This document shows positions 6,160 through 27,019 of a DNA stretch of 27,471 nt, in pieces; within the stretch, counting starts at the first letter, position 1, and each line of letters starts with the position of its first letter. The translations under genes were made by a program, and so were the position numbers. Under the pieces are notes generated by a model that had not been told where the DNA came from, did not search any database, and was given only the letters and a program-made list of their open reading frames with translations. Source of the DNA: a virus; IMG/VR virus record IMGVR_UViG_3300035487_000021, positions 1-27,471 of that record; one strand, given 5' to 3'.

Positions 6160-6540
6160 ATGGCCGTAGTTAGATTAAAGACAACACAAGTAGCAGGTGT
6201 ATTAGCTCAAGTAGTAAAGAAGCAAGGTGGTAAATGTGCCATTTGTGGACATCCCTTTACTCAACGAGATATACCTGTACTTGACCATTGCCATACTAAA
6301 GGTTATATCCGAGGTGCTTTACATAATTCATGTAATGGTATCGAAGGACGTATCAAGAAGTTAGCACAACGTGGTCATAAAGGTATTACCTCTGAGAAGT
6401 ATATAATTGGCCTAGGTAGTTACCTAGAGACACACACAACACCAAAGTACAACTACATACATCCTAGTCATAAAACTGAGGATGAGCAGCGGTTAGAACG
6501 TAACAAGAAAGCTCGGTTAAAGAGAGCTAAGGCGAAGTAA
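6160..6540 (+). CDS. Recombination endonuclease VII
   Basis: This 126-aa protein has the endonuclease VII signature: C26-x2-C29, then D42-H43-x-H45, then a YIRGALHNSCN segment with H55, C58 and N59, a zinc-containing His-Me finger. T4 endonuclease VII uses C23, C26, C58 and C61; here the second pair reads H55/C58, so the zinc site would be CCHC. The enzyme resolves branched DNA, and in this phage it replaces the unrelated T7 gp3 resolvase. After residue 70 the chain is basic and ends in a lysine/arginine-rich tail. AAGG at 6147-6150 precedes ATG 6160, and the stop overlaps the RNA polymerase start as TAATG. Confidence 0.93.
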   Translation: MAVVRLKTTQVAGVLAQVVKKQGGKCAICGHPFTQRDIPVLDHCHTKGYIRGALHNSCNGIEGRIKKLAQRGHKGITSEKYIIGLGSYLETHTTPKYNYIHPSHKTEDEQRLERNKKARLKRAKAK

Positions 6541-8972: not shown

Positions 8973-9173
8973 ATGATTAGAAAAGACCATAGTCCCGTAA
9001 ATAATTTAGCGCATACTAAGGACCCTAGGGGGTTAGTTAAGCGCGACTTAGAACATTTAGAACAAGTGTATAAACAAAGACCTATTAAACCAACCATGAC
9101 CCAAAATGAAATTATGTTTCAAGCAGGTCAACAAGACGTTATTCGTTATATCACAGATAAAATGGTGGTATAA
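8973..9173 (+). CDS. Small hypothetical protein (66 aa)
   Basis: A short basic protein with no recognised family. A GAGAGA ribosome-binding site at 8962-8967 precedes ATG 8973, and the stop overlaps the next start as TAATG, so it is translated in a coupled pair with the cupin-like gene. The C-terminal half (NEIMFQAGQQDVIRYITDKM) looks like one amphipathic helix; small proteins with a similar FQAGQ..VI..I ending occur between polymerase and portal genes in related phages, from memory. The position suggests a late-early or minor structural role, which cannot be decided here. Confidence 0.75.
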   Translation: MIRKDHSPVNNLAHTKDPRGLVKRDLEHLEQVYKQRPIKPTMTQNEIMFQAGQQDVIRYITDKMVV

Positions 9174-9622
9174 TGGATATAACTTTACTGGGGAGTTGGG
9201 AACAACTGACCGTTACAGATAGACGTGATGCAATAATGGAACTAGAAGACAGCATAAAAGCTGTAGAAAGTGAACAAGGTATCGAGATAACACCCGTCGA
9301 ATATCACTGTAATGGTGTGTATGCCAGAGAGATTAGAATACCTAAAGGTACAGCTCTAGTTGGTGAAATACACTTACAGGACCAGATTAACGTAGTATCA
9401 CAAGGAGTAATCCGAGTGTTTACAGAAAAGGGTGTACATACAATTAAAGCACCTTCAACTTTTATATCGCCAGCTGGTACTAAACGAGCAGGTTATGTTA
9501 TAGAGGATACGGTATGGACTGTATTTCACGGCACAACTAAAACGAGCGAAGAGGAAATTAGGAAAGAGTTTATAGCTCCTGATTACCATTCTTTAGATAA
9601 ACAATTGGAGCATACAAAATGA
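9173..9622 (+). CDS. Cupin-like protein of unknown function
   Basis: The 149-aa product has a helical head (residues 1-35) followed by a beta-rich middle (about 46-120) with the spacing of a single cupin jelly roll: REIRIPKGTALVGEIHLQDQINVVSQGVIRV, then an APSTFISPAGTKRAGYVIEDTVWTVFH stretch. In cupins the first motif usually supplies two histidines (HxH); here only H67 is left, so metal binding is doubtful. Proteins of this kind occur just before the portal gene in many T7-like aquatic phages and are of unknown role. The start overlaps the previous stop (TAATG) and its own stop overlaps a 15-codon frame (ATGA at 9619-9622). Confidence 0.75.
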   Translation: MDITLLGSWEQLTVTDRRDAIMELEDSIKAVESEQGIEITPVEYHCNGVYAREIRIPKGTALVGEIHLQDQINVVSQGVIRVFTEKGVHTIKAPSTFISPAGTKRAGYVIEDTVWTVFHGTTKTSEEEIRKEFIAPDYHSLDKQLEHTK

Positions 9623-9653
9623 AGCACACTACAACGTGTTTAGGAGGTGACTT

Positions 9654-9905
9654 ATCTCTTGGATAGCAACCGCAATTATAGCAACGGCATCCCTACAAGT
9701 AGGTACTGCCGCCTTACAACGTAAAGCATCGAGAAAAGCCGAAAAGCGAGCTGAAGCAGATGCATTAGAAGCAGATAAAGCAGCACGTAAAGCTGAAGCA
9801 TTCGCAGAAACAGAAGGCGAAGGTCAAGGTTCAATAGCTAATATATCACTAGAAGTCGATGATGAACTTGAGCAAGATAAGAAAGTTTCGACGGTGAGGA
9901 TTTAA
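9654..9905 (+). CDS. Small membrane-type protein with a probable ATC start
   Basis: An open frame runs from just after TGA 9648-9650 to TAA 9903-9905. It has no ATG, GTG or TTG in frame until a GTG four codons before its stop, yet AGGAGG at 9642-9647 stands six bases before ATC 9654, the ideal distance for a start. Read from there, the 83-aa product begins SWIATAIIATASLQVGTAAL after the initiator, a hydrophobic segment, then a basic and alanine/glutamate-rich helix (residues 22-55), then an acidic stretch and a basic end. It sits immediately before the portal gene, the position of T7 gp7.3, a small virion/tail assembly protein; equivalence is only a guess. A single base difference from ATG, a sequencing error or frameshifting from the upstream 15-codon frame are alternatives. 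Confidence 0.7.
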   Translation: MSWIATAIIATASLQVGTAALQRKASRKAEKRAEADALEADKAARKAEAFAETEGEGQGSIANISLEVDDELEQDKKVSTVRI

Positions 9906-9906
9906 T

Positions 9907-11445
9907 ATGAACTCAGTAGAGCATGAGAAGAAATATCTGACAGGTGACTATTTACTTAAAGGTGAATATTACATAGAGTCAGCAAAACGTGAACAAACAT
10001 TAACTCGTTCAGAACGATATGCAGGTTGGACAATCCCAACTGTATTTCCAGATGACCCGTTAACAGGTGATGATGAATTCCAAAACGATTTCCAGTCAGT
10101 GGGCGCACAAGCAGTTAATAACTTATCTAATAAGATTATGATGGCATTGTTCCAACCTTCAAGACCTTTCTTTCGTTTGACATTGACTCCTGAACAAGAA
10201 CAAGAAGTATTAGCTGAGAATATCGGCATGAACTCTACAATGATTGAAGAAGCACTTGCTGAAGGTGAGCGTGGTTCAATGCGTGAGTTAGAAAAGATTA
10301 ATGCACGAGTAACAATGACTGATTGTATTCAACAGTTAATTATTACAGGTAACAGCTTACTGTATATGCCAGAAGATAACACTATGCAATCATACTCTAT
10401 TAGAGATTATGTTATTGAGCGTGACCTTCGTGGTAACATGGTAAAGATTATTATAAGAGAAACAAAATCAATAACAAGTCTCAGTGACGAAATGGCTACA
10501 ATGGCTATGGAAGCAGGTATGACTATGACAGGCGAAGCTACCATCTATACTGCAATACAGAAAGTTGGTAAAGACCAGTTTGTTGTGTGGCAAGAATTAG
10601 AAGATTTATGCTATTGTCATGTAAGTGTTGGTCGTTATAAACAAGATGAGTTACCTTGGATTCCATTAACATGGACTCTAGCACGTAACAAAGATTATGG
10701 TACTGGTTTAGTAGAAATGTATTCAGGTGATTTTCATACACTATCCACCTTAGCTGAAGCAATATTAGATTATACAACCATTATGACTGATGTCAAAGTA
10801 CTAGTAGACCCTACTGGTATGACTAATGTTAGAACCATTAATGAAGCGTCTAGTGGTGATTACGTACATGGTCGTGAAGAAGATTTATATGTCCACTCAG
10901 CAAATGTACAAGCTGGTGCAGACTTCTTAACAAATCAATTTATGACAGTAGAACGAAGAATCGCAGCCGCTTTCCTTTTAAATAACTCAGTCACACGTGA
11001 TGCAGAACGAGTAACAGCAGAAGAGATACGAATGCAAGCGCAGGAGTTAGAAAGCTCTTACGGTGGTGTATACTCACGGTTAGCTACAGACTTACAGCTA
11101 CCATTAGCAAAACGTTTAATAACTAAATTTGACCCAGTGTTAAAAGATATTGAACCTGTTATTGTTACAGGCTTAGAATCATTATCACGTAACTCAGAGT
11201 TAGATAGAACACGCGCATTCTTTAGTGATTTAGTGCAATTAGCTGACGTACCTGAACAAGTAGCAATGCGAATTGACTATAGTAAACTTATAACTATGTT
11301 AGGTGCAGGTCATGGTATTGATTACAAAGACTTATTAAAAGATGAGAAACAAGTACAAGCAGACCAACAAGCAGCAGCAGCGCAACAAGCACAAGCAGCA
11401 GGTATGGAAGCTGGTGCAGTTAACCAAGCAACAGGAACAGAATAA
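9907..11445 (+). CDS. Portal (head-tail connector) protein, T7 gp8-like
   Basis: The 512-aa protein (T7 gp8: 536 aa) forms the dodecameric ring through which DNA is packaged and ejected. The family signature is visible at the N-terminus (ERYAGWTIPTVFP, then GAQAVNNLSNKIMMALFQPSRPFFRL), with a conserved crown/stem region near residues 360-400 (NSVTRDAERVTAEEIRMQAQELE). The C-terminus is glutamine/alanine-rich, as often seen in this family. GAGGA at 9896-9900 is six bases before ATG 9907. The stop overlaps the scaffold start as TAATG, which makes translational coupling likely. Confidence 0.96.
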   Translation: MNSVEHEKKYLTGDYLLKGEYYIESAKREQTLTRSERYAGWTIPTVFPDDPLTGDDEFQNDFQSVGAQAVNNLSNKIMMALFQPSRPFFRLTLTPEQEQEVLAENIGMNSTMIEEALAEGERGSMRELEKINARVTMTDCIQQLIITGNSLLYMPEDNTMQSYSIRDYVIERDLRGNMVKIIIRETKSITSLSDEMATMAMEAGMTMTGEATIYTAIQKVGKDQFVVWQELEDLCYCHVSVGRYKQDELPWIPLTWTLARNKDYGTGLVEMYSGDFHTLSTLAEAILDYTTIMTDVKVLVDPTGMTNVRTINEASSGDYVHGREEDLYVHSANVQAGADFLTNQFMTVERRIAAAFLLNNSVTRDAERVTAEEIRMQAQELESSYGGVYSRLATDLQLPLAKRLITKFDPVLKDIEPVIVTGLESLSRNSELDRTRAFFSDLVQLADVPEQVAMRIDYSKLITMLGAGHGIDYKDLLKDEKQVQADQQAAAAQQAQAAGMEAGAVNQATGTE

Positions 11446-13380: not shown

Positions 13381-13390
13381 GTAAAACTTT

Positions 13391-13417
13391 AGAAGACCTT
13401 CAATGAGGGTCTTTTAT
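13391..13417 (+). terminator. Terminator after the major capsid gene
   Basis: AGAAGACCTTC (13391-13401) pairs with GAGGGTCTTTT (13405-13415) around an AAT loop: 11 pairs, two G-U. The 3' arm itself ends in TTTT, giving the short U-tract of an intrinsic terminator. In T7 the terminator T-phi lies at the same place, right after gene 10. The U-tract is short, so read-through to the tail genes is likely. Confidence 0.7.
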
Positions 13418-13438
13418 AAGTGGTACTATTAAACACTT

Positions 13439-25846: not shown

Positions 25847-27019
25847 ATGGCTAATACTACCAGAACATACACAAGTGACGGTATACAAACAATATACCCA
25901 GTAGACTTCACGCTAGGATTTATCCACCGTGACTACGTGTCTATAAAATCAGTTAGTGGAGGAGTAGATACTAACTTAAATTTTATATGGCTTAATGACG
26001 CACAAATACAATTGTACGGCCCAGTAGTAGTAGGTCTACAGGTAATTGTAAGTAGAATAATACCAAGAACCACCTTAGTAAACGACTATGAAGATGGAGC
26101 AATACTTCGTGGTAGAAACCTAGATAATTCAAATCTACAACATTTAATGTTAACCGAAGAAGATGAAGACAATAACTACATAACTGAAGCAGGTGTTGCA
26201 ACAGGTAATGTAGATATGGCAAGTTACACATTAAATAACTTAGCTGACCCAACACTCGCTACCGACGCAATTAACAAGCAAACATTAGATAGTAACGTAG
26301 TTACATTAGACACTAAAATTGACACAGAAATAAGTGCAGTAGACGTACGTATTGATGGAATTGCAGCAGATATAGCCTCCGACACATATTCGGCATTAGT
26401 ATCCGCAACATCCGCCACAGCAAGTGCTACAGCAGCAGCCTCCTCCGCAACCAGTGCTGGGAGTTCGTGGGCGAGTATTCAAGCAAACAATAACAACTCC
26501 GATTTGTCGTCGATACAATCAGCAGTATCCGCAGCCGAAGCCGTAGTTAGCGCTTCAGCAGCACTCGCTTCTGAAACACAAGCAACACTAGACAGAATAC
26601 AAACAGGGTTAGATAGAACGCAAACAACAACTGACGCAACTGCAACAGCAGTAGACGTAGTCTCTGCGGAAACGGCACAAGCAGCTGCCGAAGTAGCACA
26701 AACCTTCGCTGAAAGTGCGTGGTCAAACATACAAACAAACAATAACAACTCTGATGTGTCTGCGGTAGCTTCTGCTGCATCTGCGGTAAGTTCATCAGTT
26801 AGTGCTACAGCAGCATCAGCTGCACAAGTACAGACAGGGTTAGACAGAATACAAACAGGGTTAGACGTAGTACAAACAGCAAACAGTGTAGCAACAGCAC
26901 AAGCCAGTGTTACTGATGCACAGACAATTAGAGATAATTTGGAAGCGCCTGTAATTAACATTGCAGCCGATCTAGTAAATACACAATTATTGATTGCACA
27001 AATGCACCCAATGACTTAG
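25847..27019 (+). CDS. Tail fibre protein with T7 gp17-type N-terminal anchor
   Basis: The first ~115 of 390 residues match the T7 tail-fibre anchor domain (RTYTSDGIQTIYPVDFTLGFIHRDYV at the start, then a strand-rich part with RTTLVNDYEDGAILRGRNLDNSNLQ), which attaches the fibre to the tail. The rest is alanine/serine/threonine-rich and probably a trimeric coiled coil; residues 206-289 and 290-373 are a tandem duplication. No receptor-binding or chaperone domain follows, so this looks like an adaptor rather than a full fibre (T7 gp17: 553 aa). AGAGG at 25837-25841 precedes ATG 25847. The gene ends in TAG, and the next gene continues in the same frame. Confidence 0.93.
   Translation: MANTTRTYTSDGIQTIYPVDFTLGFIHRDYVSIKSVSGGVDTNLNFIWLNDAQIQLYGPVVVGLQVIVSRIIPRTTLVNDYEDGAILRGRNLDNSNLQHLMLTEEDEDNNYITEAGVATGNVDMASYTLNNLADPTLATDAINKQTLDSNVVTLDTKIDTEISAVDVRIDGIAADIASDTYSALVSATSATASATAAASSATSAGSSWASIQANNNNSDLSSIQSAVSAAEAVVSASAALASETQATLDRIQTGLDRTQTTTDATATAVDVVSAETAQAAAEVAQTFAESAWSNIQTNNNNSDVSAVASAASAVSSSVSATAASAAQVQTGLDRIQTGLDVVQTANSVATAQASVTDAQTIRDNLEAPVINIAADLVNTQLLIAQMHPMT
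26462..26965 (+). repeat. Tandem 252-bp (84-aa) duplication within the fibre gene
   Basis: Unit 1 (26462-26713) and unit 2 (26714-26965) both begin with a serine-x-tryptophan, continue with a NNNNSD motif, and carry an identical 25-base stretch at 26589-26613 and 26841-26865, encoding the RIQTGLD repeats. The offset is exactly 252 bases. Outside these blocks the two copies have diverged, so the duplication is not very recent. It lengthens the presumed coiled-coil shaft. Confidence 0.85.

Follow-up and report, generated by a model that had tools for sequence, protein, structure and literature searches.

The 83-aa gene that precedes the portal gene in the stretch of DNA analyzed here (the window, a 27,471-nucleotide IMG/VR virus record of a T7-like phage) is probably translated from an ATC codon at position 9654, and this odd start appears to derive from the homing of an HNH endonuclease gene into the beginning of the small gene (probability about 0.78). 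Comparison of relatives shows intact and reduced endonuclease alleles at one site, a conserved Shine-Dalgarno (SD) sequence with its ATC and, apparently, purifying selection after the insertion. The start is very probably real and explained as a homing-endonuclease scar with a compensating SD; how the ribosome uses it is what we infer from the features below. Judged by the portal (61.6% identity), the nearest cultured relatives of the phage are R8W and H4/4, which infect Alteromonas (Foturvirus); the order of genes runs from RNA polymerase through a small gene, a short tail fiber-like gene and the 83-aa small gene to the portal. A recombination endonuclease VII-like gene (6160-6540; Pfam E=5e-12) lies upstream of the RNA polymerase gene. 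The junction contains the following features:

9173-9622, + strand: upstream short tail fiber-like gene, 149 aa (PHROG 12032 'short tail fiber protein', E=1e-48)
9619-9666, + strand: 15-codon leader ORF, MKHTTTCLGGDLSLG*, read as an HNH endonuclease ORF scar (C-terminus as in the intact HNH ORF and in L018)
9623-9658, + strand: inserted segment, 36 bases against one G in L008, net +35 (alignment with L002/L008 and other uninserted relatives)
9637-9665, + strand: predicted hairpin in which the SD pairs with the region of the start codon (-10.7 kcal/mol)
9642-9650, + strand: extended SD, AGGAGGTGA (-15.9 kcal/mol with the anti-SD tail; identical in L018, L064-L066 and L083)
9654-9656, + strand: putative ATC start codon, homologous to the relatives' ATG (alignment column 1: 23 M, 3 I)
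9654-9905, + strand: conserved 83-aa gene ahead of the portal, with a FAETEG motif (family of ~35 loci; dN/dS ~0.11; AlphaFold2 pLDDT 58)
9682-9765, + strand: local divergence tract, possibly a co-conversion tract (16 mismatches in 84 bases against L008; next mismatch at 9921)
9907-11445, + strand: portal (head-tail connector) gene (61.6% identity to the Alteromonas phage R8W connector)

The frame of the small gene is open from ATC 9654-9656 to TAA 9903-9905, over 83 codons. An earlier sequence-only reading had noted that no ATG, GTG or TTG opens this frame, and the only in-frame instance is indeed GTG 9894-9896, three codons ahead of the stop. Also as described there, AGGAGG at 9642-9647 points at the ATC across a six-base gap that begins with an in-frame TGA (9648-9650), and the portal ATG at 9907 follows one base after the TAA. 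The same reading called this the strongest ribosome-binding site of the area; the SD proved even longer, with nine bases (AGGAGGTGA) that are 9/9 complementary to the 16S rRNA 3' tail. Its predicted duplex of -15.9 kcal/mol is about twice that of any other start tested in the window (+0.1 to -8.0 kcal/mol) and the best among the 283 ATC triplets of the + strand, the runner-up reaching -11.7 kcal/mol. Upstream, the TGA of the tail fiber-like gene (9620-9622) overlaps an ATG at 9619 (ATGA), the ancestral ATG position, from which the leader ORF starts; the leader closes with a TAG whose first base lies ten bases beyond the first base of ATC 9654.

Homologues of the small gene, which mark its frame as genuine, were found in phages R8W and H4/4 and in about 30 IMG/VR contigs; a search for cellular carriers found no cellular genomes with the small protein. 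ATG-type relatives begin the small gene directly at the end of the upstream gene. In the closest contig (L002/L008, 3300027771_000163) it starts with ATG AGT TGG at the upstream gene's stop, and this contig has CATACAAAATGAGTTGGATAGC where the window has CATACAAAATGA-AGCACACTACAACGTGTTTAGGAGGTGACTTATCTC-TTGGATAGC, that is, 35 extra bases. Among about 30 relatives in one comparison, every family member starts with ATG except L018, whose start region reads AGGAGGTGACTT-ATC-GCT-TGG-ATA, and a scan at the DNA level revealed four more contigs with the L018-type start (L064, L065, L066 and L083). The first column of a 26-row alignment holds M in 23 rows and I, encoded by ATC, in the window, L018 and L083. 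AGGAGGTGACTT-ATC is common to the window, L018 and the four additional contigs, at the position of the relatives' ATG codon; L018 and the group of four, all IMG/VR contigs, are two further genotypes with this SD and ATC, at ~72% DNA identity to the window. The ATC thus behaves as a near-cognate (AUH) start, standing at a homologous position without a canonical start and being kept in diverged homologues (~72% DNA identity). An ATG at 9654 would have spoken against the start proposed by the sequence-only reading, and no ATG version of the insert was seen among the contigs compared. The window is a metagenomic contig, and an error of sequencing or assembly might in principle have created the codon, but the identical ATC in independent contigs of other metagenomes makes such an error very unlikely. 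The homologue in Vibrio phage PhPV1.2 (L007:2896-3102) was excluded when starts were compared, as its frame seems broken, the annotated start being out of frame with the conserved N-terminus. Scanning for the pattern AGGAGGTGA-NN-TATH-NNN-TGG gave no new family member among the matches listed.

Four near-identical contigs (L064-L066 and L083) harbor, at the same junction, a 157-aa HNH ORF, MNQLQELTHITELCVQYN...NRVTWKHVGGDLSLG*, identified by Pfam HNH_3 (28.5 bits against a cut-off of 24.8, E=1e-6) and PHROG 6254 (E=7e-25). For a putative DNA-binding region at its C-terminus, the hits were HTH_28 (E=0.05) and HTH_23 (E=0.13), both below the cut-off, and endonuclease activity of the protein is putative. 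This ORF begins with an ATG where that of the target would lie, and it includes the SD and ATC in its final codons: related HNH proteins usually stop near TWKHV, and the additional residues GGDLSLG are specified by the SD, by the ATC and by the target's first codons. The ORF spans the whole insert in a frame other than the target's, which places it outside any intron or intein, and the relatives include both inserted and empty alleles of this one site, so that its presence is sporadic. L018, about 92% identical to these contigs, carries an in-frame deletion of 135 codons bounded on either side by CGTA, and retains a 22-codon leader, MNQIQELTHITELCVGGDLSLG. The intact ORF ends in HVGGDLSLG and the L018 leader in CVGGDLSLG*, and the window leader ends alike. 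One metagenome, 3300025652, yielded both L018 and L066; the contigs L066 (3300025652_003252) and L081 (3300025652_003264) likewise represent intact and internally deleted HNH alleles within one metagenome.

Across the SD, the ATC and the first codons, the window and the L083 group agree at 24/25 bases, AGGAGGTGACTTATC(T/G)CTTGGATAG; between the window and L066, 2.2% of 25-base stretches are as similar as this SD-plus-ATC end. This frequency counts against a scar, as do the first 19 inserted bases of the window, which have no clear match to the HNH gene and are too diverged to place. With no HNH domain detected and only the 15-codon ORF left, the window insert was classed as a scar, and its 24-base 3' end together with the C-terminus of the leader leads us to read it as a second HNH deletion scar. 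The divergence tract at 9682-9765, followed by no mismatch to L008 until 9921, would fit co-conversion.

These comparisons suggest an ancestral state in which the small gene opened with an ATG where the upstream gene ends. This site would then have been invaded by a free-standing HNH homing endonuclease gene whose own start replaced the target's ATG. The 3' end of the invading gene, which also codes for GGDLSLG, would have supplied the nine-base SD and the ATC from which the interrupted gene is restarted in the -1 frame. In the window lineage, most of the HNH gene would subsequently have been lost, leaving the 15-codon leader ORF. AUC is generally a weak start codon, for which the extended SD would compensate. 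One prediction counts against an ATC start left by homing: the SD and ATC are almost fully paired in the predicted ensemble (hairpin 9637-9665), although the larger region around the hairpin folds no better than shuffled sequences. Translation of the leader ORF could open this hairpin and may assist the start by termination-reinitiation, a process that an SD is known to help (PMC2268962). The leader is in frame in both scars, which fits such coupling yet has a roughly one-in-nine chance of arising at random.

The sequence-only reading had proposed that the phage uses an ATC start to keep a membrane-active protein low. The ATC start itself is upheld by its position and conservation; the low-expression purpose is not, since the ATC goes with the insert or its scar and no other SD in the window is as strong. 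Selection of the ATC for down-tuning would accord with the lowered initiation from near-cognate starts in known cases (PMC13009471) and with retention of the codon in two lineages, though one base change would give ATG. Set against this, about 30 relatives use ATG, ATC is seen only with the insert, and an SD of maximal strength points to compensation for the ATC and not to attenuation. We accordingly favor the origin by homing and regard adaptive attenuation as unlikely; attenuation as a side effect of the insert is possible. The membrane-active character is weakly founded as well: the best 19-residue hydropathy of the small protein is about 1.5, and the distant homologue L006 has no hydrophobic segment.

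L018 and L083 have the inserted end in common, and their small genes differ by 7 nonsynonymous and 16 synonymous changes (dN/dS 0.108, p=3e-6). The gene thus appears to be under purifying selection after the insertion and to have remained useful with its ATC. It is very unlikely, and less probable than attenuation, that the insertion left the window's gene dead or dying and the ATC incidental. The window insert has no second close genotype by which to gauge selection on its own branch, but the SD and ATC are kept in diverged phages, and the window frame is intact, with 5 nonsynonymous to 13 synonymous differences from L008.

A programmed -1 frameshift from the leader or HNH ORF into the small gene, yielding a fusion product, would explain why the frame relation of leader and gene is constant (the inserts of 35 and 56 bases are both 2 mod 3), and an SD-like site does lie upstream. 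Such a shift must, however, follow the TGA at 9648-9650, and the stretch then usable, TTA TCT CTT GGA, contains no Z_ZZN or X_XXZ_ZZN slippery motif (PMC4066793), while the positions of the SD and the start fit initiation exactly. A frameshift product, which the sequence-only reading had named as evidence against its own proposal, is hence improbable, marginally more so than a dying gene. Readthrough from the upstream gene was rejected on account of the intervening stops. Bypass from GGA-TAG, for which T4 gene 60 is the reference, was also discarded, inspection giving no landing site that keeps the conserved N-terminus. Nor is the insert a phage promoter repeat, no second copy in the window exceeding chance expectation.

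Initiation at an ATC left by a homing endonuclease may have counterparts at other sites. Of the 79 HNH relatives whose 3' flanks could be read, 65 show a frame opened by ATG close to the end of the HNH gene, a mechanical count that includes the four L083-type loci through an internal ATG. At four loci (L122, L139, L141 and L161, at about 1905-1945 of each) the gene following the HNH gene has ATT at the very position at which relatives lacking the HNH gene, phages MEP401 and MW202796, have ATG, and a close relative of this group, L121, has an ATG one codon earlier; a near-cognate ATT after an HNH gene is well supported by these alignments at this unrelated site. In L127 (1913-1935), a second unrelated site, an ATT stands behind AAGGAGGT at good spacing at the apparent start of a tail fiber-like gene after the HNH gene, the next canonical in-frame start being a TTG about ten codons on. 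The search found no uninserted homologue of the L127 site, where a near-cognate ATT is probable. Tentatively, HNH homing into gene starts might recurrently leave an AUH start behind a strong SD as its signature, the invariant ATG of the target being replaced by the SD and AUH of the element. If true, the occupied site could differ from the target of the enzyme and thereby provide self-protection, and the target gene would depend on the 3' end of the element, so that only scars retaining that end survive.

In T4, segG and other free-standing homing endonuclease genes contain promoters of downstream genes within their coding regions, which favors their retention (PMC2988022). The HNH gene at the window site would parallel them as an endonuclease cassette between genes that holds a signal needed by the next gene, and supply of that signal by its 3' end would likewise favor retention. 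Unlike in the segG type, the signal would be translational, an extended SD with a near-cognate start, and the insertion took the target's start codon. A related HNH protein in a nearby place is encoded by the T7-type gene 7.7 (phage C5, L281; Bas102, L280), located between gene 7.3 and portal gene 8; unlike at the window site, the portal there follows immediately after the HNH gene and retains an ATG of its own. The HNH gene of Hafnia phage Ca (Autographiviridae) also overlaps both neighbors and exists in intact and deleted forms, with a natural 397-bp deletion whose virions the authors call non-infectious (PMC8861465), but its downstream terminase gene keeps ATG. The AUA start of infC and the AUU start of cvfC1 in Staphylococcus aureus carry extended SDs (PMC13009471) and resemble the window in combining a weak AUH codon with such an SD at suitable spacing; these, however, are cellular genes whose starts are read as regulation, whereas the window start would have arisen with a mobile element. 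ShiLan-domain HNH ORFs hidden in phage methylases (PMC11855218) are likewise inserted out of frame with the target gene, but the methylase frame continues across the insert, whereas the small gene restarts after it. In the literature accessible outside most subscription journals, we found no paper in which a homing endonuclease gives rise to a near-cognate start.

The origin by homing would provide a route for a gene to gain and keep a non-standard start, a mobile endonuclease taking the ATG and paying with an extended SD, and would extend from transcription to translation the idea that homing endonucleases carry their neighbors' signals. Gene callers that need ATG, GTG or TTG miss or truncate such genes, and the locus is a natural experiment on the extent to which an SD of maximal strength can rescue AUC.

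For the small protein itself, AlphaFold2 predicted one low-confidence N-terminal helix (pLDDT 58), and a PDB profile search gave no match. By profile comparison it is similar to neither T7 gp6.7 nor gp7.3 (hhalign probability 0.5% and 0.2%, respectively); a virion role would be a guess from the place of the gene. Elsewhere in the window, a T run and a terminator-like hairpin, recognized by eye, follow the capsid gene (13388-13420), and the tail fiber gene contains imperfect repeats of 84-86 bases at 252-base spacing with 71-73% identity (26449-26882).
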